Origin: Anadara kagoshimensis
Taxonomy: Eukaryota > Mollusca > Bivalvia > Arcoida > Arcidae
DNA: 64,000 nt
Direction: 5' to 3'
NCBI GenBank assembly: GCA_021292105.1
Contig: CM037869.1
Coordinates: 28,845,536-28,909,535 of the forward strand
In this document: positions 6,101-60,436 of the stretch, piece by piece
Layout: every line of letters starts with the position of its first letter
How positions within the stretch are numbered: position 1 is the stretch's first letter
Program-made: the position numbers and the translations under genes
Notes under the pieces: model-generated
The model's database searches: none
What the model saw: the letters and a program-made list of their open reading frames with translations, nothing else
Told to the model about the DNA's origin: nothing

Positions 6101-9100
6101 TAATATAGCATCAGACATTAAAACATGATAATGAAGTTGATACGTATTTCATCGACATGCTTGATACTAGTAGATGGAATAAGTGTTTGTTGTCTTTGAG
6201 TCCACAAAACATGTATTGACTGCGGTATTTTGTCGAAATTGTTTTGTTTTTATTAAAATGATCATGATAATAGCATCAAACCTGACAACAGCAGTCATAG
6301 CTGTTAATATTTGCAACAAGTGTTCCTACAGTAATACATTTATTCATTGTCACCATTTATTTAGTCACAAGTTGGTAAATGGGCTTGGCTATAAATTGAG
6401 GGAGTGATAAAAATACCAGAAAATAAATAGATATTGTCTGTTTAAAATGCTTACTTGATATTGAGGGTATTAATACAAGGTTTTACTGATAGCCCTCAAA
6501 TTCTTTGATGTGATCAGTTCGATTAGAATTACACAAAAGTTGTAGACCTGACATCAGCATATTTTCACCTATCTAATGCATGTGACCAAAGGTATTGAAC
6601 TGCAGTCTCATAGTGTATTATATCATTTCAGATTTTGCATACTCTAGTTTTTGCTTTAGACAATATTTTACCACTGTGATAGCTCAGTTTTTAGAGTGCT
6701 CACTCTGTAAATGGGAGATTGTGGGTTCAAATCCGGACCTGGTCTGACCAAAGACTTTAATGTGGATAGTGACTGTTCTTTTGCCAAGCACTTTGCATTA
6801 CAAATGAAAGTCACAGTTCTTTTATATGAGTACTTGAAATAAATGAGGTCCTGTGTCACAGTATGTGTGGCAATATAAAGAACTCTGCTGAATAATGCCA
6901 TCAGCGCAACACATAGAGAAAATTTCTGCACCTTCGCCTATAGCTGATGACATCTTGATATAAGTGAAATATTCTTGACTGAGACGTTAAACACCATTGC
7001 TCTACTCTATCTCGGACAATATTTAAGTTAAAGTATGAATAAAAAACAAAAAATTATATGATTTTATATAAATGTTAATAATTCTACATTTACAGATTAT
7101 TACAATCCTGATATGAAAGCCGTCAAGGCAGATCAGGAACTACTAGGGGAGATAATAAGGTAAGAGTGATGAAAATAATATGTCTCTGAAATCATATCAT
7201 GATTATAAATAATACACAAACTGACCATAGCTACGGCCTGACCATCTTGTTTATTTTTAATATTGGAACAACATATTACAGGGGTTCAAAATTGCCAGTT
7301 TCCATTGAAAGAATTGAAGTTGAACCTTGTAATTCTTCCTGTAGGACCCTTGGAATTTTTACTGTAAAAGTCTTGATTGATCAGCAGTTTATATCAGGAC
7401 CTGTTTCTCTGTTTTGCAATCATAAATCAAGGTAATTAGGCCATATCACTTGTGAATTATGATAAGGCATGGTCCTTTCATCCATATGTCTGTCTATATT
7501 AGTTTGTCCGACCTACTCCCTAGAGATTCTTGAAAATATTTTTACTAAACTTGATATATATGATTACAGGGTATAGCATCCGTGCACCAGAAGGGGAGGT
7601 AACTCTGTGCTATTCTCTAAGTGTGGTGCCACTTTGAAATTTTAATCATGTTTTTGCAATCTTGATGGCAAAAATGTAAATAGTTATATCTTGCTGTCTT
7701 TAGTGGTGCTTCTGTTCATAATGTAGATTTATCTGTAGACTTAGTTTGTAACAAATTAAGAAAAAATTATTAAGTACATAAAGTAGGTTTCTCCAATTAT
7801 TTTTTTTTTTTTTGTTGTAGATGGAAGGCTCCCGATATACATTCTCATATAGAAAAACTAGAAATACCGTGGGTATTAATAGCTACAAAATGGTTCTTGT
7901 GTCTGTTTGCTGATGTGATGCCAGTAGAGGTTAGTGTATAAGTTAATATTTAATGTATTTATACGTTGCAAACAAAGGGATATACAGAAAACATCCTGTC
8001 TATCCGTCCATCCTAATATTGTGTCCATTCCATATTTTCCATGTCTACAGATGGATTTGGATTAAACTTGGCACAAATATAAAGCAACATGAGACGTCGT
8101 GCCGCACACCAAATTTGGGTACATAAGCCAAGGGTCAAGACCTAACAGCACAGTAAATGCAAGGGGATATGTGCTTTTGAGTGAACATTAAATAGCTAGA
8201 CTAAGTTAAGTTTAGTTTGGTCTGTAAAAAGTTTTTTGTCATATTTCATTAGAAGGACAGGATAGACAGGTAAAGAAATAACACATGTGACATGAAAATC
8301 TTGATTTTACCCATGTGGGATTTTCTTATCTTACTCTATGATGAAATCACTTTTCCCAACCAACAATTTTCAAGTCTTGGGTCAGACCCGGTCAAGTTTG
8401 AACCCATGATCTCCCACTTACAGAGTGATCACTTTACAAACTGAGCTATGCAGTGGTTAATAGAATAGAGAGACACAAGATGGAGAAATAAAAATAAGTA
8501 AAAAAAATTATCTTGTTTAATGAATATTATATAAAACTTTCAAGTTAATGTTTAAATGTGTTTCTTTTATTGTTTTAGACAGTAATGCGAATTTGGGATT
8601 GTTTGTTCTATGAAGGAGATAAAATACTGCTGAGAGTGGCTGCTATGTTGATAATACAAAACAGAGATCAAATATTAGCTTGTAGAAACTTCACTCAGGG
8701 AACAGACCTCTTAAAGTCTATAGTCAGTAATCCAAAAATTGTAGACTGCCATGCTTTTATGAAGGTAAGTTCGTTGAAATGGGCCTTGGTGGTCAAGTGA
8801 TCTAAAGCACATGCTTTCAGATCACAGTTCTTATAATGGCTTTGGTTTGAATCCCACTCAGGCAGATCCAAGGCTGAGAAAGTTAATCAGATCAGTTCCC
8901 TTTCTGAAGGTGGGTGGTTTCTCTTGTCATTCAAGTTTCCTCCACCATCCATGAACTGACAGGTTTGATATGAGTGAAAGAATCTTGACTAGAGCATAAA
9001 ACTCCATCACTCAACTCCACTCATTGAAAGATGATATTAAGCTCACCAACCAAAAGGCCTTGTGGCCTTATCATGGCATCAGCATGTGTATTTGTTTGCA

Positions 9101-16460: not shown

Positions 16461-18300
16461 ACAAGAGGCCCATGGGCCTTAACGCTCACCTGAGGCAGAG
16501 TACATATCTTTTGCAGAGGTTCAATGGTCAATGACATTAATAAAAAAGAATATCACAACTTTCAGCAGTAAGGGCCAATAATATTCCAATATACATGCCT
16601 ATACAAAAAGTTTATAGTTTTTGAGATAATTAACCAATTTAAGTATTCATTCAATTCTATGACCTTGACCTTTGAACCCATGACCTTCAATCATATATCA
16701 AAATGATCCTTAGCCCAATACCTACAATATTCCAATATACATGCCTATACAAAGAGTTTATAGTTTTTGAGATAATTAACCATTTAAGTATTCATTCGCA
16801 TCTATGACCTTGACCTTTGAACCTATGACCTTCATTCATATATCAAAATGATTGTTGTGCAAATGCTTACAATATTCTAATATACATGCCTATACAAAAA
16901 AGTTTATAGTTTTTGAGATAATTAACCATTTAAGTATTCATTCAATTCTATGACCTTGACCTTTGAACTCATGACCTTCAATCATATATCAAAATGATCC
17001 TTAGGCCAATACCTACAATATTCCAATATACATGCCTATACAAAAAGTTTATAGTTTTTGAGATAATTAACCATTTAAGTATTCGTTTGCATCTATGACC
17101 TTGACCTTTGGACCTATGACCTTCATTCATATATCAAAATGATCGTTGTGCAAATGCCTATAATATTCTAATATACATGCCTATACAAAAAGTTTATAGT
17201 TTTTGAAATAATTAACCATTTTAATATTCGTTTGCAGCTATGACCTTGACCTTTGAACCTATGACCTTCACTCATATATCAAAATGATCGTTAGGCCAAT
17301 ACCTACAATATTCCAATATACATGCCTATACAAAAAGTTTATAGTTTTTGAGATAATTAACCATTTAAGTATTTGTTTGCATCTATGACCTTGACCTTTT
17401 TTGAACCTATGACCTTCAATCATATATCAAAATGATCGTTGTGCAAATGCCTATAATATTCTAATATACCTGCATATACAAAAAGTTAACAGTTTTCAAG
17501 ATAATTAACCATTCAGGTATTCATTCACATCTGTGACCTTGACCTCTGAACCCATGACCTTCATTCATATATCAAAATGATCGTTAGGATAATACCTAAA
17601 ATATTCTAATATACATGCCTATACAAAAAGTCTATAGTTTTTGAGATTAATAATCATTTCAGTACTTGTTTACATCTGTGACCTTGACCTTTAAACCCAT
17701 GACCTTAATCGATATATCAAAATGATCGTCATGTCAATACCTACAATTAACCAAAAATCCTACGTCATTATCACCAGAAATGTTTAAAAAATAGCATTTT
17801 TTATCAAAGGTCAAAAACTGGGACATGACCTTGACCTTGACATCAATCGGAAGAAAATCGCAAGACAAGATCAACAGTGAAAACTCCATACAATTATCTT
17901 CAGCAATTATGAAGTTATAACAATAAATGTCTCATTTTGAAAATAACATAATTTTACGCAAAAAACGTGTAATCTATTTTTCGTTCAATTTTCATGAAAA
18001 ACACAATTTTAGTGTATCTAGGTATCCTAAATCCAAAAATCTAATCAAAATTTGCCTGCACCTTTTGGTTTCAGAGAAGAAGATTTTTTTGTCTTTTGGC
18101 TATTTATAGTAACGGCAGCCATATTGTTGGGCGTGGTCAAACCCCGAACACAATTTTAAAAGCCTGTTACCTAGGCATAATAATCACCAAGTTTCATCAA
18201 ATTTGGCTCAGTAGTTTTGGAGGAGAAGATTAAAATGTAAAGTTTACGCACGACGGACGACGGATGGTGATAGATAGGAGCCTTTCGGCTCAGGTGAGCT
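16461..18300. mobile_element. 1.8 kb element with eight 145-bp tandem repeats
   Basis: The left end has a 14-bp palindrome AGGCCCATGGGCCT (16466-16479) and then GCTCACCTGAG (16484-16494). The right end has CTCAGGTGAGC (18289-18299), its exact inverse. In between, a 145-bp unit repeats eight times (16.5-17.75 kb), each with 'catgcctatacaaaaagttt', 'atagtttttgagataattaa' and 'tgaccttgacctttgaacc'. A unique right part ends 'cgcacgacggacgacggatg'. The architecture recalls bivalve elements with a tandem-repeat core, but the family is not established. No open frame of note. Confidence 0.75.
16530..17750. repeat. 145-bp tandem repeat array (8 units)
   Basis: The word tgaccttgacc starts at 16660, 16805, 16951, 17096, 17241, 17386, 17534 and 17679, giving spacings of 145-148. 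A ninth tgaccttgacc at 17826 lies outside the repeat, 147 bp further on. On the minus strand each unit gives aggttcaaaggtcaaggtca (some with base changes). Confidence 0.85.
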
Positions 18301-32031: not shown

Positions 32032-32244
32032 CAGTACAGGCCTGTCGAAAGTTTAACACCTTACTGACGAATTGGTCCTGAAAAGGAAGCTTATTTTAGC
32101 CCCTGTTAGCTATATTTATCTAGGCAGCTGCTATTTATCTCTTGTCAGCTTTTTGCCAATAGGTATCCAATTTCGGCAACATGGCTGTCGTGAATCGATT
32201 ACTTTTCGTCAATTCAGGTGTTAAACTTTCGACAGGTCTGTATG
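32032..32244. mobile_element. MITE family A, intact-looking copy
   Basis: 213 bp. Left end CAGTACAGGCCTGTCGAAAG continuing tttaacacc; right end, ggtgttaaactttcgacagg continuing tctgtatg, is its inverse over about 25 bp. TA sits at both sides. No coding. The CAGT terminus and TA target suggest Tc1/mariner-type mobilisation. Confidence 0.8.
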
Positions 32245-32336
32245 TAGTTTTTAATAACGTGAATATTGTTATATGAAAATCTGCTTTAATATAATATGTT
32301 GCTTTATAACATATAATATCAAACTATTGTAGACAC

Positions 32337-32516
32337 GGTACAGGCCTGTCCAAAGTTTAACGACGAACTAACGAATAAGCGCATAATCAACAAATTGTTT
32401 GACTTCACCTTCGATACATTTTGACAGCTTATTTATAGCTGAGCAAGACGTATATATATTTCTCGACAGTTTGTCGGTAACTTACTTTCCATTTCTCGTT
32501 CAAGTGCGGAGCATCT
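32337..32516. mobile_element. MITE family A, truncated copy
   Basis: Left end 'tacaggcctgtccaaagttt', 'aacgacgaactaacgaat' only; the matching right end is not found before the next copy begins at 32518. Confidence 0.5.
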
Positions 32517-32517
32517 A

Positions 32518-32734
32518 CAGTACAGATACAGACCAGGCGAAAGTTAAAACTTAACTAACGAATTGGTACCAAATCCGCAGCTTAAATCGGCTCTTCGTTA
32601 CTTTTTTCGGTAGCTTTTGGTAGCTGATATTTGTCTCTCAACTGCTTTTTGGCCACAAGCTTCGGAGAACTGGACAGCAGAGCCTTGATCCCGTTTCGTT
32701 AGCACAGTGTTAAACTTTCGACAGGTCTGTACTG
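32518..32734. mobile_element. MITE family A copy next to the satellite
   Basis: Left CAGTACAGATACAGACCAGG continuing cgaaagttaaaac; right tgttaaactttcgacaggtc continuing tgtactg and then TA. Its right 28 bp are the same sequence, apart from 'ttcg' for 'tctg', as the 40-bp satellite unit that starts here. Confidence 0.75.
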
Positions 32735-35700
32735 TATATCCTTCTTGTGTTAAACTTCTGACAGGTCTGTACTGTATATCCTTCTTGTGTTAAACTTATG
32801 ACAGGTCTGTACTGTATTCCTTCTGTGTTAAACTTCTGACAGGTCTGTACTGTATATCCTTCTTGTGTTTAAACTTCTGACAGGTCTGTACTGATATCCT
32901 TCTTGTGTTAAACTTCTGACAGGTCTGTATGTATATCCTTCTTGTGTTAAACTTCTGGACAGGTCTGTACTGTATATCCTTCTTGTGTTTAACTTCTGAC
33001 ATGTCTGTACTGTATCCTCTTGTGTTAAACTTCTAACAGGTCTGTACTGTATATCCTTCTTGTGTTAAACTTCTGACAGGTCTGTACTGTATACTTCTTG
33101 TGTTAAACTTCTGGACAGGTCTGTACTGTATATCCTTCTTGTGTTAAAACTTCTGACAGGTCTCTACTGTATATCCTTCTTGTGTTAAACTTCTGACAGG
33201 TCTGTACTGTATATCCTTCTTGTATTAAACTTCTAACAGGTCTGACTGTATATCCTTCTTGTGTTAAACTTCTAACAGGTCTGTACTGTATATCCTTCTG
33301 GTGTTAAACTTCTAACAGGTCTGTACTGTATATCCTTCTTGTGTTAAACTTCTAACAGGTCTGTACTGTTATATCTTCTTGTTCTGTTAAACTTCTGACA
33401 GGTCTCTACTGTATATCCTTCTTGTGTTAAACTTCTGACAGGTCTGTACTGTATATCCTTCTTGTGTTAAACTTCTGACAGGTCTCTACTGTATATCCTT
33501 CTTGTGTTAAACTTCTGACAGGTCTGTACTGTATATCCTTCTTGTATTAAACTTCTAACAGGTCTGTACTGTATATCCTTCTTGTGTTAAACTTCTAACA
33601 GGTCTGTACTGTATATCCTTCTTGTGTTAAACTTCTAACAGGTCTGTACTGTATATCCTTCTTGTGTTAAACTTCTGACAGGTCTGTACTGTATATCCTT
33701 CTTGTGTTAAACTTCTGACATGTCTCTACTGTATATCCTTCTTGTGTTAAACTTCTAACAGGTCTGTACTGTATATCCTTCTTGTGTTAAACTTCTAACA
33801 GGTCTGTACTGTATATCCTTCTTGTGTTAAACTTCTGACAGGTCTGTACTGTATATCCTTCTTGTGTTTAACTTCTAACAGGTCTGTACTGTATATCCTT
33901 CTTGTGTTAAACTTTTAACAGGTCTGTACTGTATATCCTTCTTGTGTTAAACTTCTAACAGGTCTGTACTGTATATCCTTCTTGTGTTAAACTTCTGACA
34001 GGTCTGTACTGTATATCCTTCTTGTGTTAAACTTCTGACATGTCTCTACTGTATATCCTTCTTGTGTTAAACTTCTAACAGGTCTGTACTGTATATCCTT
34101 CTTGTGTTAAACTTCTAACAGGTCTGTACTGTATATCCTTCTTGTGTTAAACTTCTAACAGGTCTGTACTGTATATCCTTCTTGTGTTAAACTTCTGACA
34201 TGTCTGTACTGTATATCCTTCTTGTGTTAAACTTCTGACAGGTCTGTACTGTATATCCTTCTTGTGTTAAACTTCTGACAGGTCTCTACTGTATATCCTT
34301 CTTGTGTTAAACTTATGACATGTCTGTACTGTATATCCTTCTTGTGTTAAACTTCTGACAGGTCTGTACTGTATATCCTTCTTGTGTTAAACTTATGACA
34401 TGTCTGTACTGTATATCCTTCTTGTGTTAAACTTATGACATGTCTGTACTGTATATCCTTCTTGTGTTAAACTTCTGACATGTCTGTACTGTATATCCTT
34501 CTTGTGTTAAACTTATGACAGGTCTGTACTGTATATCCTTCTTGTGTAAACTTCTGACAGGTCTGTACTGTATCCTTCTTGTGTTAAACTTCTGACAGGT
34601 CTCTACTGTATATCCTTCTTGTGTTAAACTTCTGACAGGTCTGTACTGTATATCCTTCTTGTGTTAAACTTCTGACAGGTCTGTACTGTATATCCTTCTT
34701 GTGTTAAACTTCTGACAGGTCTCTACTGTATATCCTTCTTGTTTTAAACTTCTGACAGGTCTGTACTGTATATCCTTCTTGTGTTAAACTTCTGACAGGT
34801 CTCTACTGTATATCCTTCTTGTGTTAAACTTCTGACAGGTCTCTACTGTATATCCTTCTTGTGTTAAACTTCTGACAGGTCTGTACTGTATATCCTTCTT
34901 GTGTTAAACTTCTGACAGGTCTGTACTGTATATCCTTCTTGTGTTAAACTTCTGACAGGTCTCTACTGTATATCCTTTGTGTTAAACTTCTGACAGGTCT
35001 GTACTGTATATCCTTCTTGTGTTAAACTTCTGACAGGTCTGTACTGTATATCCTTCTTGTGTTAAACTTCTGACAGGTCTCTACTGTATATCCTTCTTGT
35101 GTTAAACTTCTGACAGGTCTGTACTGTATATCCTTCTTGTGTTAAACTTCTGACAGGTCTGTACTGTATATCCTTCTTGTGTTAAACTTCTAACAGGTCT
35201 CTACTGTATATCCTTCTTGTGTTAAACTTCTGACAGGTCTGTACTGTATATCCTTCTTGTGTTAAACTTCTGACAGGTCTGTACTGTATATCCTTCTTGT
35301 GTTAAACTTCTGACAGGTCTCTACTGTATATCCTTCTTGTGTTAAACTTCTGACAGGTCTGTACTGTATATCCTTTTGTGTTAAACTTCTGACAGGTCTG
35401 TACTGTATATCCTTCTTGTGTTAAACTTCTGACAGGTCTCTACTGTATATCCTTCTTGTGTTAAACTTCTGACAGGTCTGTACTGTATATCCTTTGTGTT
35501 AAACTTCTGACAGGTCTCTACTGTATATCCTTCTTGTGTTAAACTTCTGACAGGTCTGTACTGTATATCCTTCTTGTGTTAAACTTCTGACAGGTCTGTA
35601 CTGTATATCCTTCTTGTGTTAAACTTCTGACAGGTCTCTACTGTATATCCTTCTTGTTTAAACTTCTGACAGGTCTGTACTGTATATCCTTCTTGTGTTA

Positions 35701-38700
35701 AACTTCTAACAGGTCTCTACTGTATATCCTTCTTGTGTTAAACTTCTGACAGGTCTGTACTGTATATCCTTCTTGTGTTAAACTTCTGACAGGTCTGTAC
35801 TGTATATCCTTCTTGTGTTAAACTTCTGACAGGTCTCTACTGTATATCCTTCTTGTGTTAAACTTCTGACAGGTCTGTACTGTATTCCTTCTTGTGTTAA
35901 ACTTCTGACAGGTCTGTACTGTATATCCTTCTTGTGTTAAACTTCTGACAGGTCTGTACTGTATATCCTTCTTGTGTTAAACTTCTGACAGGTCTGTACT
36001 GTATATCCTTCTTGTGTTAAACTTCTGACAGGTCTCTACTGTATATCCTTCTTGTGTTAAACTTCTGACAGGTCTGTACTGTATATCCTTCTTGTGTTAA
36101 ACTTATGACATGTCTGTACTGTATATCCTTCTTGTGTTAAACTTCTGACAGGTCTGTACTGTATATCCTTCTTGTGTTAAACTTCTGACAGGTCTGTACT
36201 GTATATCCTTCTTGTGTTAAACTTCTGACAGGTCTGTACTGTATATCCTTCTTGTGTTAAACTTCTGACAGGTCTCTACTGTATATCCTTCTTGTGTTAA
36301 ACTTCTGACATGTCTGTACTGTATATCCTTCTTGTGTTAAACTTCTAACAGGTCTGTACTGTATATCCTTCTTGTGTTAAACTTCTGACATGTCTGTACT
36401 GTGTATCCTTCTTGTGTTAAACTTCTGACAGGTCTGTACTGTATATCCTTCTTGTGTTAAACTTCTGACAGGTCTGTACTGTATATCCTTCTTGTGTTAA
36501 ACTTCTGACATGTCTGTACTGTGTATCCTTCTTGTGTTAAACTTATGACAGGTCTGTACTGTATATCCTTCTTGTGTTAAACTTCTGACAGGTCTGTACT
36601 GTATATCCTTCTTGTGTTAAACTTCTGACAGGTCTGTACTGTATATCCTTCTTGTGTTAAACTTCTGACAGGTCTGTACTGTATATCCTTCTTGTGTTAA
36701 ACTTCTGACAGGTCTCTACTGTATATCCTTCTTGTGTTAAACTTCTGACAGGTCTCTACTGTATATCCTTCTTGTGTTAAACTTCTGACATGTCTGTACT
36801 GTATATCCTTCTTGTGTTAAACTTCTGACATGTCTGTACTGTATATCCTTCTTGTGTTAAACTTCTGACAGTCTGTACTGTATATCCTTCTTGTGTTAAA
36901 CTTCTAACAGGTCTCTACTGTATATCCTTCTTGTGTTAAACTTCTGACAGGTCTCTACTGTATATCCTTCTTGTGTTAAACTTCTGACAGGTCTGTACTG
37001 TATATCCTTCTTGTGTTAAACTTCTGACAGGTCTGTACTGTATATCCTTCTTGTTTAAACTTCTGACAGGTCTGTACTGTATATCCTTCTTGTGTTAAAC
37101 TTCTACAGGTCTGTACTGTATATCCTTCTTGTGTTAAACTTCTGACAGGTCTACTGTATATCCTTCTTGTGTTAAACTTCTGACAGGTCTGTACTGTATA
37201 TCCTTCTTGTGTTAAACTTCTAACAGGTCTGTACTGTATATCCTTCTTGTGTTAAACTTCTAACAGGTCTGTACTGTATATCCTTCTTGTGTTAAACTTC
37301 TGACAGGTCTGTACTGTATATCCTTCTTGTGTTAAACTTCTGACAGGTCTGTACTGTATCCTTCTTGTGTTAAACTTCTGACAGGTCTACTGTGTATCCT
37401 TCTTGTTTAAACTTCTGACAGGTCTGTACTGTATATCCTTCTTGTATTAACTTCTAACAGGTCTGTACTGTATATCCTTCTTGTGTTAAACTTCTGACAG
37501 GTCTCTACTGTATATCCTTCTTGTGTTAAACTTCTGACATCTGTACTGTGTATCCTTCTTGTGTTAAACTTCTGACAGGTCTCTACTGTGTATCCTTCTT
37601 GTTTTAAACTTCTAACAGGTCTGTACTGTATATCCTTCTTGTGTTAAACTTCTAACAGGTCTGTACTGTATATCCTTCTTGTGTTAAACTTCTAACAGGT
37701 CTGTACTGTATATCCTTCTTGTGTTAAACTTCTGACAGGTCTCTACTGTATATCCTTCTTGTGTTAAACTTCTGACATGTCTGTACTGTGTATCCTTCTT
37801 GTGTTAAACTTCTGACAGGTCTCTACTGTGTATCCTTCTTGTTTTAAACTTCTAACAGGTCTGTACTGTATATCCTTCTTGTGTTAAACTTCTAACAGGT
37901 CTCTACTGTATATCCTTCTTGTGTTAAACTTATGACATGTCTGTACTGTATATCCTTCTTGTGTTAAACTTCTGACAGGTCTGTACTGTATATCCTTCTT
38001 GTGTTAAACTTCTAACAGGTCTCTACTGTATATCCTTCTTGTTTTAAACTTCTAACAGGTCTGTACTGTATATCCTTCTTGTTTTAAACTTCTAACAGGT
38101 CTCTACTGTATATCCTTCTTGTTTTAAACTTCTAACAGGTCTGTACTGTATATCCTTCTTGTTTTAAACTTCTAACAGGTCTCTACTGTATATCCTTCTT
38201 GTGTTAAACTTCTAACAGGTCTGTACTGTATATCCTTCTTGTGTTAAACTTCTGACAGGTCTGTACTGTATATCCTTCTTGTGTTAAACTTCTGACATGT
38301 CTGTACTGTATATCCTTCTTGTGTTAAACTTCTAACAGGTCTTACTGTATATCCTTCTTGTGTTAAACTTCTACAGGTCTGTACTGTATATCCTTCTTGT
38401 GTTAAACTTCTGACAGGTCTGTACTGTATATCCTTCTTGTGTTAAACTTCTGACAGGTCTGTACTGTATATCCTTCTTGTGTTAAACTTCTAACAGGTCT
38501 GTACTGTATATCCTTCTTGTGTTAAACTTCTGACAGGTCTGTACTGTATATCCTTCTTGTGTTAAACTTCTAACAGGTCTGTACTGTATATCCTTCTTGT
38601 GTTAAACTTATGACATGTCTGTACTGTATATCCTTCTTGTGTTAAACTTCTGACAGGTCTGTACTGTATATCCTTCTTGTGTTAAACTTCTAACAGGTCT

Positions 38701-41700
38701 CTACTGTATATCCTTCTTGTGTTAAACTTCTAACAGGTCTGTACTGTATATCCTTCTTGTGTTAAACTTCTGACAGGTCTGTACTGTATATCCTTCTTGT
38801 GTTAAACTTCTGACAGGTCTCTACTGTATATCCTTCTTGTGTTAAACTTCTGACAGGTCTGTACTGTATATCCTTCTTGTATTAAACTTCTACAGGTCTG
38901 TACTGTATATCCTTCTTGTGTTAAACTTCTAACAGGTCTGTACTGTATATCCTTCTTGTGTTAAACTTCTAACAGGTCTGTACTGTATATCCTTCTTGTG
39001 TTAAACTTCTGACAGGTCTGTACTGTATATCCTTCTTGTGTTAAACTTCTGACAGTCTCTACTGTATATCCTTCTTGTGTTAAACTTCTAACAGGTCTGT
39101 ACTGTATATCCTTCTTGTGTTAAACTTCTAACAGGTCTGTACTGTATATCCTTTTGTGTTAAACTTCTGACAGGTCTGTACTGTATATCCTTCTTGTGTT
39201 AACTTCTAACAGGTCTGTACTGTATATCCTTCTTGTGTTAAACTTTAACAGGTCTGTACTGTATATCCTTCTTGTGTTAAACTTCTAACAGGTCTGTACT
39301 GTATATCCTTCTTGTGTTAAACTTCTGACAGGTCTGTACTGTATATCCTTCTTGTGTTAAACTTCTGACATGTCTCTACTGTATATCCTTCTTGTGTTAA
39401 ACTTCTAACAGGTCTGTACTGTATATCCTTCTTGTGTTAAACTTCTAACAGGTCTGTACTGTATATCCTTCTTGTGTTAAACTTCTAACAGGTCTGTACT
39501 GTATATCCTTCTTGTGTTAAACTTGTGACATGTCTGTACTGTATATCCTTCTTGTGTTAAACTTCTGACAGGTCTGTACTGTATATCCTTCTTGTGTTAA
39601 ACTTCTGACAGGTCTCTACTGTATATCCTTCTTGTGTTAAACTTATGACATGTCTGTACTGTATATCCTTCTTGTGTTAAACTTCTGACAGGTCTGTACT
39701 GTATATCCTTCTTGTGTTAAACTTATGACATGTCTGTACTGTATATCCTTCTTGTGTTAAACTTATGACATGTCTGTACTGTATATCCTTCTTGTGTTAA
39801 ACTTCTGACAGGTCTGTACTGTATATCCTTCTTGTGTTAAACTTCTGACAGTCTGTACTGTATATCCTTCTTGTGTTAAACTTATGACATGTCTGTACTG
39901 TATATCCTTCTTGTGTTAAACTTCTGACAGGTCTGTACTGTGTATCCTTCTTGTGTTAAACTTATGACTGGTCTGTACTGTATATCCTTCTTGTGTTAAA
40001 CTTCTGACAGGTCTTACTGTATATCCTTCTTGTGTTAAACTTCTGACATGTCTGTACTGTATATCCTTCTTGTGTTAACTTCTGACATGTCTGTACTGTA
40101 TATCCTTCTTGTGTTAAACTTCTGACAGGTCTGTACTGTATATCCTTCTTGTGTTAAACTTCTGACAGGTCTGTACTGTATATCCTTCTTGTGTTAAACT
40201 TCTGACAGGTCTGTACTGTATATCCTTCTTGTGTTAAACTTCTGACAGGTCTGTACTGTATATCCTTCTTGTGTTAAACTTCTGACAGGTCTCTACTGTA
40301 TATCCTTCTTGTGTTAAACTTCTGACAGGTCTGTACTGTATATCCTTCTTGTGTTAAACTTCTGACAGGTCTGTACTGTATATCCTTCTTGTGTTAAACT
40401 TCTGACAGGTCTGTACTGTATATCCTTCTTGTGTTAAACTTCTGACAGGTCTACTGTATATCCTTCTTGTGTTAAACTTCTGACAGGTCTCTACTGTTAT
40501 CCTTCTTGTGTTAAACTTCTGACAGGTCTGTACTGTATATCCTTCTTGTGTTAAACTTCTGACAGGTCTCTACTGTATATCCTTCTTGTGTTAAACTTCT
40601 AACAGGTCTGTACTGTATATCCTTCTTGTGTTAAACTTCTGACAGGTCTCTACTGTATATCCTTCTTGTGTTAAACTTCTGACAGGTCTGTACTGTATAT
40701 CCTTCTTGTGTTAAACTTCTGACAGGTCTGTACTGTATATCCTTCTTGTGTTAAACTTCTGACATGTCTCTACTGTATATCCTTCTTGTGTTAAACTTCT
40801 GACAGGTCTGTACTGTATATCCTTCTTGTGTTAAACTTCTGACAGGTCTCTACTGTATATCCTTCTTGTGTTAAACTTCTGACAGGTCTGTACTGTATAT
40901 CCTTCTTGTGTTAAACTTCTGACAGGTCTGTACTGTATATCCTTCTTGTGTTAAACTTCTGACATGTCTCTACTGTATATCCTTCTTGTGTTAACTTCTA
41001 ACAGGTCTGTACTGTATATCCTTCTTGTGTTAAACTTCTGACATGTCTGTACTGTATATCCTTCTTGTGTTAAACTTCTGACAGTCTGTACTGTATATCC
41101 TTCTTGTGTTAAACTTCTGACAGTCTGTACTGTATATCCTTCTTGTGTTAAACTTCTAACAGGTCTGTACTGTATATCCTTCTTGTGTTAAACTTCTGAC
41201 AGGTCTGTACTGTATATCCTTCTTGTGTTAAACTTCTGACAGGTCTGTACTGTATATCCTTCTTGTGTTAAACTTCTGACATGTCTGTACTGTATATCCT
41301 TCTTGTGTTAAACTTCTGACAGGTCTGTACTGTATATCCTTCTTGTGTTAAACTTCTGACAGGTCTGTACTGTATATCCTTCTTGTGTTAAACTTCTGAC
41401 AGGTCTCTACTGTATATCCTTCTTGTGTTAAACTTCTGACAGGTCTGTACTGTATATCCTTCTTGTGTTAAACTTCTGACAGGTCTGTACTGTATATCCT
41501 TCTTGTGTTAAACTTCTAACAGGTCTCTACTGTATATCCTTCTTGTGTTAAACTTCTAACAGGTCTGTACTGTATATCCTTCTTGTTTTAAACTTCTAAC
41601 AGGTCTGTACTGTATATCCTTCTTGTGTTAAACTTATGACATGTCTGTACTGTATATCCTTCTTGTGTTAAACTTCTGACAGGTCTGTACTGTGTATCCT

Positions 41701-42015
41701 TCTTGTGTTAAACTTCTGACAGGTCTGTACTGTATATCCTTCTTGTGTTAAACTTCTAACAGGTCTGTACTGTATATCCTTCTTGTGTTAAACTTCTGAC
41801 AGGTCTGTACTGTATATCCTTCTTGTGTTAAACTTCTGACAGGTCTGTACTGTATATCCTTCTTGTGTTAAACTTCTGACATGTCTGTACTGTATATCCT
41901 TCTTGTGTTAAACTTCTGACAGGTCTGTACTGTATATCCTTCTTGTGTTAAACTTATGACAGGTCTGTACTGTATATCCTTCTTGTGTTAAACTTCTGAC
42001 AGGTCTCTACTGTGT
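32707..42015. repeat. 9.3 kb satellite, 40-bp unit, about 230 copies
   Basis: Head-to-tail array. The common unit can be written tgttaaacttctgacaggtc + tgtactgtatatccttcttg (two halves of 20). Period is 40 bp through most of the array; 36-39 bp and 41-42 bp units are scattered, mostly near the left edge. Recurrent variants are ctgaca/ctaaca/atgaca, aggt/atgt and tctgtac/tctctac. Short open frames inside are repeat translations and not genes. The first 28 bases equal the terminal inverted repeat of the adjacent MITE. The count is length divided by period. Confidence 0.95.
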
Positions 42016-42184
42016 ATTTATCAGTCGTGACTTGCTATCTCACATTTCGTGATTCATATCCAACTAGTGTGTCACAAAGTGAAGGTACGTCATAACACTG
42101 ATGTGCCGTGGATCAATTCTATGACTATCATTTTCAGAGATTACGATTAGCAGGGGCCCAGTAGCCTATGACAAATAAGCCTGG

Positions 42185-42438
42185 TCCCGGTTTCACAATC
42201 ACTCCTTAGCTAAGATTTTCCTTAATGTAAATATTGCAAAATTTCAAATCGATACAATTTTGTTAATTTTCAAGATATTGAGGAATTTAAGGTGTCATTT
42301 TTAAGATTACTTCCTGATAAGAACATTTGCATTTGGTTTTGGCAAAATATTCATCAGTAGTTCCAAAAAGAGATTACAAAAAATTGCTAAGTTTAAGTTA
42401 AGGAAAATCTTAGCTAAGGAATGATTGTGAAACTGGGG
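42185..42438. mobile_element. MITE 'cccggtttcacaatca'
   Basis: Left 'cggtttcacaatcactcctt' then 'agctaagattttccttaa'; right 'ttaaggaaaatcttagctaa' then 'ggaatgattgtgaaactggg'. Inverted arms of about 40 bp, total about 250 bp, no coding. Confidence 0.75.
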
Positions 42439-42721
42439 CCTGGCCCCTAAATCTTTACACATTAGGCTATTTATTACTTCTACAAGTTTTTTTATTTAGT
42501 GAGCTGGGCCCCCAACTCAAAATAGTTAAGATTCATCCATGATTTTGTGTTGACCAGTATACTTATATTGGACCAACGTTATCAAGTTGTCATGTATAGG
42601 GTCAACACTTTATGTAGTCTAGCTAGAAAGTCCAGATGGATGTCATACAGTTCATTTTAAACAAGTGTGGAAAAGGGCCGGGGTAGTGGTAGTAGGAGAC
42701 CTACCCCTTCGGTACATGTAG

Positions 42722-43035
42722 CGGGCAGGTTAGTTGGTAGAGTGCTTGTTCCGTAAGTCAAGGAGGTCGAGGGTTTAGTCTCTGGTCAGGTCTGACCCAA
42801 GAATTGAAAAAGTGTAGTGACTGTTCGCTCGGCATTAAAAATGAATGCAGGTCTTTCGGACAAACCTGAAAACCCGAGGCCCCTTGTCACGGTAGGCGTG
42901 GCAAGATAAAGAACCTTCACTGTATAATGCCACCACCGCAAAGCACAGATATTTCTGCATCTAAACCTATAGCTGGTGACGTCTCGATATAAGTGAAATA
43001 TTATTGACTTAAAAGTTAAACCCCATTAATCAATG
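42722..43035 (+). mobile_element. SINE family 1
   Basis: tRNA-like head 'ggttagttggtagagtgctt' with a decayed B box 'gagggtttagtctc', body 'aaacccgaggccccttgtca', tail 'gatataagtgaaatattatt'. Confidence 0.72.
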
Positions 43036-59189: not shown

Positions 59190-60436
59190 CGAGGGGAAGT
59201 AAAAAAGTTCATAGAACAGCGTATTCAGTCAAGCGTAACACATATTTTCTTTATTTGTCACAACATATTTTTGTAATTCTCAAAAGCATTCAAAGTTGGT
59301 GACCATCAAGCAATGATTGGAAATCAAAATGTTGAGTTTAGGGCAGTAATAACGTTCCTGACAGTAGAGGGATCAAATGCCAAAGCAATTCACCGGCGAA
59401 TGGCCGAGGTGTACGGTGACAGTGGTCCTGCCTATTCCACAGTGGCAAAATGGTCAGCTGAATTTAAACGTGGGCTAACCTCACTGAAGGATGACCCACG
59501 GTCAGGTCGGCCAGCTGATGCCATCACAAAGGAAATTGTCACGTCTGTGGAGACCCTCATCATGAATGATCGTCGAATTAGGATTGATGACATAGCTAGA
59601 GAGTGTGACATTTTACATGGAAGTGTATACACGGTTATCCACGAGCATCTTGGGATGTCAAAAGTATCCGCAAGATGGGTCCCCAGAAACCTTAATCTGC
59701 AGGATCGCTTCTAAAGATTCCAGTCAAGTCGGGAGCTTCTTGGCATTTATAATGATAACCCAGAGAGGTTCCATTTACGTTCAGTAACTGGTGATGAAAC
59801 ATGGATTCATCATTGGGACCCAGAAACCAAAAAAGAGTCCGTCCAATGGAAGCACCCTGGCTCACCCCCACCAAAGAAATTCAAAACCCAACCATCAGCT
59901 GGCAAAGTCATGGCCACTGTGTTTTGGGATTTTAAGGGTGTTCAGATAATCAATTATAAACCTGCTGGAATCTCTATCACTGGGGCTTACTATGCTGATC
60001 TAATGAAGCAGCTGAAAGCTGCTATTAAATTAAAAAGGAGGGGAAAGTTGAGCCGAGGGGTATTGGTTCTTCACGACAATGCTCCTGTGCACAAGTCAAG
60101 GATTGCACAAGCAGCGATTCGTGAATACAAGTTCGAACAACTTAATCACCCACCCTACAGTCCCGATTTGGCACCCAGTGATTATTTCCTATTTAGAAAA
60201 TTGAAATCCCATTTACGGGGAATCAGATTTCCTGATGATGATGGACTTAAAGCTATCACAGAGGCATGGTTTCAGGTCCAAACCGAAGGCTTCTATTTCA
60301 AAGGTATAGACAGTCTGAAAGAAAAGTGGGTTAAGTAGAATTGGGTAAATTGGGAATATACTGAAAAATAATAATAAAATGTATAGTTTGTTGAGGCAAT
60401 GTATACCCCGTTCTATGAACTTTTTGACCTCCCTCG
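59190..60436 (+). mobile_element. mariner transposon, 1247 bp
   Basis: Ends CGAGGGGAAGTAAAAAAGTT then catagaac (left) and gttctatgaactttttgacc then tccctcg (right) are inverted copies of about 28 bp. TA duplicates flank them (59188-59189, 60437-60438). It encodes a mariner transposase in one frame. Length and layout are typical of full mariners (about 1.3 kb). Confidence 0.93.
59313..60371 (+). pseudogene. mariner transposase, two nonsense codons
   Basis: Cut-and-paste transposase of the mariner family. One continuous frame from ATG 59313 to TAA 60369-60371 (352 codons, the usual size) interrupted only by TAA 59712-59714 and TAG 60336-60338; no frameshift. N-terminal helix-turn-helix DNA-binding half (RAVITFLTVEGSNAKAIHRR; SGRP hook; VPRNL linker) lies before the first stop. 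The catalytic half keeps all three acidic residues: TGDETW, VLHDNAPVH and YSPDLAPSDYF, with exactly 34 residues between the second and third Asp (DD34D). The second stop lies where relatives have KC before the YVEK-like end (EYTEK here). It cannot make full transposase as it stands, but is young enough to be almost intact. Confidence 0.93.

Follow-up and report, generated by a model that had tools for sequence, protein, structure and literature searches.

The DNA analysed here (the window) is a stretch of 64,000 nucleotides of the Anadara kagoshimensis genome (C13:28845536-28909535), taken from an assembly of 1.115 Gb in 36 contigs. The features that concern us lie on the forward strand and begin with three copies of a MITE family, MITE A: m1 (32032-32245), a copy with single ends that serves as the family reference; m2 (32336-32515), the left piece of an older copy whose right end is absent there; and m3 (32518-32734), a complete copy of 217 bp that is read below as nested in m2. 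The m3 element has a TA on both sides (32516-32517 and 32735-32736), the target-site duplication, and its right terminal inverted repeat (TIR, 32707-32734) contains the pentamer TTTCG. There follow a 38-bp sequence plus TA, TATCCTTCTTGTGTTAAACTTCTGACAGGTCTGTACTG TA (32737-32776), which would be the first copy of the m2 right end, and the array proper (32737-42012), about 233 head-to-tail units in none of which the TTTCG of m3 is found. The DNA past the array (42013-42060) starts TGTATTTATCAGTCG.

Tandem Repeats Finder placed the array at 32707-42017 with a period of 40, 233.8 copies and 95% matches (9.3 kb). This agrees with the initial annotation, in which an array of about 9.3 kb and some 230 units was said to start at the right end of m3: the final 28 bases of m3 are unit 0, and a perfect spacer comes next. 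Our own decomposition gave 234 units, 194 of them exactly 40 bp long. The unit joins the 28 outermost bases of the right TIR of MITE A to the 12-bp spacer TATATCCTTCTT; in left-end orientation it reads CAGTACAGACCTGTCAGAAGTTTAACAC AAGAAGGATATA, where the 28 TIR bases precede a 12-bp stretch with TA at its end. Past the last TIR, whose final base is 42012, the sequence reads TGTATTTATCAG in place of the spacer TATATCCTTCTT.

The two edges of the array differ. Units 0-16, beside m3 (32707-33383), hold 18 rare variants, a value reached in 0 of 20,000 permutations, versus none in the last 17 full units; the right-side value alone is not unusual (0.09). No clear higher-order period was seen in the array, only one old block copy in which 19 units repeat once at a lag of 134 units. 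Of 49 deleted bases, 22 fell on the six variable columns (15% expected), a pattern that points to consensus error in the assembled sequence and leaves the exact copy number uncertain. The 28-bp end of MITE A had no match at up to six edits in 10 Markov-simulated sequences of window composition. The array is long, homogeneous and head-to-tail as a satellite should be, and it is a single array at a single locus, where a satellite would be expected to form many arrays or to lie in heterochromatin; "single-locus minisatellite" is the stricter name.

The initial annotation counted five other MITE A copies in the window, each with a single end. Four do have a single right end (ending at 32244, 45893, 55378 and 29523, the last matching with seven edits), and the fifth, m2, keeps its left TIR and body but lacks its own right end. 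The MITE A TIR is about 42 bp long; its inner part, ...AACTAACGAA, is retained by the m3 end and by the other copies and is missing from the array unit. In its target-site TAs m3 is like a Tc1/mariner-type MITE, and TA stands on both sides in 9 of 11 inner elements of the arrays compared. The short body with TIRs also fits that type: our reference set of 19 intact members from contig C1 has a median length of 215 bp and a range of 178-310 bp. Judged from this length, MITE A copies are too short to code for a transposase. The left TIR of m3 (32518-32550) has an additional ATACAG, from minor slippage in its TACAG repeats, and the right TIR agrees with the consensus of the family. The window also has a mariner-like transposase frame interrupted by one stop codon (59194-60433) between 34-bp inverted repeats, with its best match among named relatives from Haliotis rufescens. 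As a source of the MITE A ends this element was rejected, since the inverted repeat flanking its ORFs (59277-60338) is unlike that of MITE A.

The 40-bp unit is private to the window locus at the search sensitivity used. The exact unit gave 78 matches genome-wide, all on the plus strand and all inside the window array, and a 34-base junction pattern allowing up to three mismatches gave 191 matches, the same 191 as the window alone; the genome search proposed at the outset, as far as the unit is concerned, thus returned this locus only. The word tatccttcttg, taken from the spacer and named at the outset as support if confined to the locus and the array, is absent from the rest of the 64-kb window, the range over which that statement holds. 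Scans against viral and prokaryotic contigs gave no hit, the outcome to be expected with eukaryotic DNA.

The right end of m3 had been named as the parent of the array, and comparison of m3 with the units is at odds with this. The TTTCG of m3 occurs in none of the 233 later units: the second differing base is changed in all 233 and the first in 232, the sole exception being unit 30. The commonest forms at this site are TTCTG (157 units), TTCTA (54) and TTATG (16), and the first later unit is like the m3 end at 26 of 28 bases. We consider it probable that the satellite instead arose from an insertion of m3 into the end of m2, which put two direct TIRs side by side that then multiplied. Nesting accounts at once for the TTTCG mismatch, for the outer flank that does not continue the spacer and for the missing right end of m2.

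Further observations bear on this reading. First, comparison of the m2 left piece with the 19 intact members showed L015 and L016 to be closest and to predict 35 and 39 missing bases, and the unit supplies 38; the next six relatives predict 14-74. Second, when m3 was removed, one TA was kept and m2 was joined to TATCCTTCTTGTGTTAAACTTCTGACAGGTCTGTACTG, the product was 220-222 bp long, to be set against the median of 215 bp and range of 178-310 bp in the 19 members, and aligned with L015 across the junction. Third, the sequence on the far side of m3 scored 63 against the MITE library, versus a maximum of 34 among 400 control stretches. The case for nesting is made by anatomy and length and not by the letters of the spacer. 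Taken alone, the 12-bp spacer cannot be recognised as MITE sequence: a subterminal stretch that includes it scored 25, and shuffled spacers averaged 30. The outer borders of m2 are CA and TG, not TA, which we read as decay.

On the best reading, then, the word tatccttcttg belongs to the interior of m2. The initial annotation took these 11-12 bp for host flank and stated that its account would fail if the word belonged inside an older, longer element, which is now the best reading. Its interpretation is partly supported, the direction from MITE to satellite being right and both the parent and the host-flank label wrong.

In the proposed mechanism, m3 would have inserted at a TA in its sibling m2, 38 bp from the m2 right end, as the anatomy suggests. 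The intact m2 right end would have read TATCCTTCTTGTGTTAAACTTCTGACAGG, and the seed would have been m3 followed by one TATCCTTCTTGTGTTAAACTTCTGACAGGTCTGTACTG, not m3 directly followed by TATTTATCAG. Since MITE ends are inverted repeats, insertion into a sibling gives direct TIR pairs on either side whatever the orientation; the left boundary of any copy is the same in both orientations, and thus nesting always yields such pairs. The right-hand pair here, the m3 TIR and the m2 TIR, would have stood in direct orientation 40 bp apart, and the 40-bp length of the unit would be this distance from TIR to TIR, as set by the insertion point. Slippage or unequal exchange may then have amplified the terminal 38 bp of m2 plus TA to about 233 copies. 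Further exchange would have homogenised the interior more than the m3 side, a putative cause for the edge pattern described above. Hairpin-driven slippage was rejected, as single-stranded folding of one and of three units was no better than that of shuffles (z-scores -0.05, 0.42, 0.15 and 1.14).

The leading alternative is an in-place duplication, and subsequent amplification, of the m3 right end together with 12 bp of host flank. Unit 0 as the m3 end with a perfect spacer after it is what this would give, and the genome holds a precedent: L044 is a 108-bp dimer with 99% matches in which the flank continues past the second copy, a plain in-place duplication, and L018 looks similar. At the window, however, the lost TTTCG and the spacer that stops at the array's outer border both speak against it, and it leaves unexplained why m2 lacks a right end of about unit length. 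We regard it as unlikely.

Formation of the array elsewhere, followed by transposition through its outermost TIR, would make the spacer a relic of the flank at the original site. In 10 of 13 array ends, two of which (L051 and L052) are copies of one locus, the outermost flank and the spacer agree at no more than three bases, TA included. The exceptions are L044 (12 bases), L042 (8) and L055 (12), the L055 value being from an inner unit whose true edge differs, and the row for L041 is approximate. A 51-bp unit, moreover, is shared by C1 20.79, 23.70 and 24.47 Mb, where the six best inter-locus alignments cover the arrays. For the window this origin is improbable, as its 40-bp unit was found at no other place, the border on its outer side reads TG where TA would be expected, and the spacer is already accounted for by m2. 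The reverse origin, in which the MITE family acquired its end from a pre-existing satellite, has only the shared 28 bp in its favour and is scarcely credible: the inner-plus-outer TIR pattern matched 32,268 times in the assembly (16,650 + 15,618, up to two mismatches) versus one locus for the unit, counts that already contradict it, and the TIR runs about 14 bp past the unit's share, which bears out the direction first proposed.

The phenomenon is wider than the window locus. The initial annotation held that such a clear parent beside its daughters is rarely visible, but the same TIR is found in tandem with other units at many places in the genome. Direct TIR pairs with a unit of 25-55 bp numbered 2,999 (1,263 + 1,736), of which 75 are from the window array; for units of 56-86 bp there were 2,126 + 2,601, including double steps of shorter units, 69 of them from the window array. 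Backward-read controls gave 0 for each search. As the 25-55 bp pairs are so many, tandem ends are a habit of MITE A. A strict per-locus pattern of exact 11-mers (direct pair, body and opposite end) gave at least 20 matches at at least 18 places versus at least 1,655 standard-length MITE A bodies, also by exact 11-mers; tandem ends are thus a small, recurrent minority of copies. Side-by-side insertion of whole MITEs was rejected on the 26 places with head-to-head TIR pairs (looser pattern, gap range as for the 25-55 bp pairs) versus 2,999 direct pairs, which sets places against pairs; counted by place, the difference is gone (18 tandem-end versus 26 head-to-head). Because there is no excess over chance neighbours by place, the excess of pairs reflects amplification and not the first pairing.

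Tandem MITE A ends were seen at 16 or more places on C1, with two to about 90 copies and various units. The unit is 43 bp at 0.83 Mb (both ends) and 44.10 Mb, 77 bp at 4.91 Mb, 85 bp at 5.03 and 5.11 Mb, 108 bp at 6.26 Mb (two copies), 82 bp at 6.60 Mb (at least one pair), 63 bp at 7.68 and 7.70 Mb, 76 bp at 12.53 and 13.33 Mb (two copies each), 51 bp at the three places named above and 40 bp at 26.47 Mb; at 3.67 Mb there are a few irregular copies of about 180-200 bp. From the first 30 exact TIR matches, 7 of 24 distinct loci had tandem ends, a fraction to be read with the facts that two of the seven are one copied pair and that arrays are likelier to be picked; 10 further TIR loci had none. 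The pairs at 5.03/5.11, 12.53/13.33 and 23.70/24.47 Mb look like mutual copies. Some paired C1 loci lie about 0.4-0.8 Mb apart (for example 23.70/24.47, 12.53/13.33 and 22.26/22.67 Mb), L051 and L052 share 92.7% identity across some 2.9 kb, and such pairs would be either segmental duplications or uncollapsed haplotypes.

Nesting is not the sole route to these arrays. MITE-likeness beyond the inner MITE was scored in 11 arrays (L018 and L050 were left out). Three exceeded the highest score among 400 controls (34), namely the window (63), L055 (76) and, marginally, L054 (35), and were taken to hold nested remains. The other eight (L053, L043, L042, L051, L052, L041, L056 and L044) scored 22-27, with no far-side MITE remainder. 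In L055 the sequence past the inner MITE reaches a second right TIR; by comparison with eight relatives, 76-202 bases would be missing, versus 75 in the usual unit and 99 in a single longer one. For L054, the four relatives that reach the nested side predict 97-108 versus 83. Both fit nesting less well than the window does. Most other arrays show neither an outer flank that carries on from the spacer nor a nested remainder, and array-bearing elements that move by their outermost end might account for such flanks. Elsewhere, then, some tandem ends have a nested anatomy and others stem from local duplication or a further route.

That satellites can come from TIRs and MITEs is, as the initial annotation noted, well known in the literature; Xstir, miDNA4, Tetris TIR-220, Galileo and repeated-insertion dimers are covered between the parts of PMC12628747, PMC9659126, PMC6947457, PMC4079207 and PMC3573991 consulted. 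A Xenopus MITE gave rise to the Xstir tandem repeats (Hikosaka and Kawahara 2004, via PMC12628747 and PMC9659126), from its TIR according to a table in PMC9659126 or from internal sequence according to PMC12628747, and Xstir is described as occurring as MITE, array and composite. As presented there, Xstir is like the MITE A array in being MITE-derived and in having two close elements invoked as its start. It differs in that a stem-loop between neighbouring elements was proposed, whereas in the window one copy lies inside another, and in that MITE A units include the outermost end plus TA and differ from place to place. The Tetris TIR-220 satellite of Drosophila virilis is likewise a kb-size satellite-like array from the TIR of a non-autonomous element, but in the account consulted its repeats are situated within the TIR and preceded by a terminal domain, whereas each window unit carries a complete element end (PMC4079207).

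In Galileo and other foldback elements, direct tandem repeats alter TIR length, as in MITE A arrays (PMC3573991). The F repeats of Galileo, as described there, are internal, about 210 bp long and present in two or three copies, whereas MITE A units, mostly 40-108 bp long, take in the outermost bases of the element and number from two to hundreds. In the window the repeats are not internal to the element, 28 of the 40 bp are TIR, and the expansion is on the right side only, unlike the inverted tandem arrays at both ends of a foldback element. L050 (C1:824500-829000), with 53 + 20 inverted 43-bp units around a tiny body, is a foldback-like element built from MITE A and, with both ends expanded, resembles the elements described in PMC3573991. 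Dimers that form when elements insert repeatedly at a single target site (McGurk and Barbash, via PMC12628747) share with the window the making of first repeats by successive related insertions; as summarized in that source, whole elements repeat in the dimers, whereas here a short end piece repeats, from an insertion inside a sibling. In the literature consulted, mostly outside subscription papers, we met no account of nested self-insertion fixing a unit or of one family founding many locus-specific arrays.

The origin of a new satellite's first two copies is usually erased by later turnover. In MITE A, a single genome offers dimers together with arrays that range from short ones to some of about 10 kb, an experiment repeated many times, and in-place duplication, nested insertion and array transposition can be told apart by reading the edges. 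The geometry by which sibling nesting gives direct TIR pairs is valid for any element with inverted ends. We tentatively suggest that self-insertion could be a satellite generator, such that an abundant MITE seeds locus-specific arrays and arrays with a working end move and spread. As the TIR spacing is fixed by the target TA, an abundant family would keep seeding new satellites; spread by a working outermost end is suggested by the similar 51-bp and 43-bp units at separate places. If so, each array would add up to hundreds of putative transposase-binding sites.

Several further repeats were noted. The 63-bp end unit matches across at least 9.9 kb (C1:7699892-7709844), about 20 kb from the 63-bp array at 7.68 Mb and in the opposite orientation. 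In L043 a 33-bp array of 37 copies (896-2102) lies inside an element that has a 43-bp array as its right end; this 33-bp unit resembles the MITE A interior by eye, and MITE A interiors may thus amplify too. The window has a 145-bp tandem array of eight copies (16574-17747), and a 145-bp repeat in L043 (316-658) looks similar by eye. A MITE-like element with 61-bp inverted arms lies at 42179-42444. It is followed by a young SINE-like element (42620-43018) with 39 other copies of 91-98% identity among the 40 candidates scored; similar repeats lie near 6670, 43845, 49325 and 51612, and the one near 51612 matches a tRNA.
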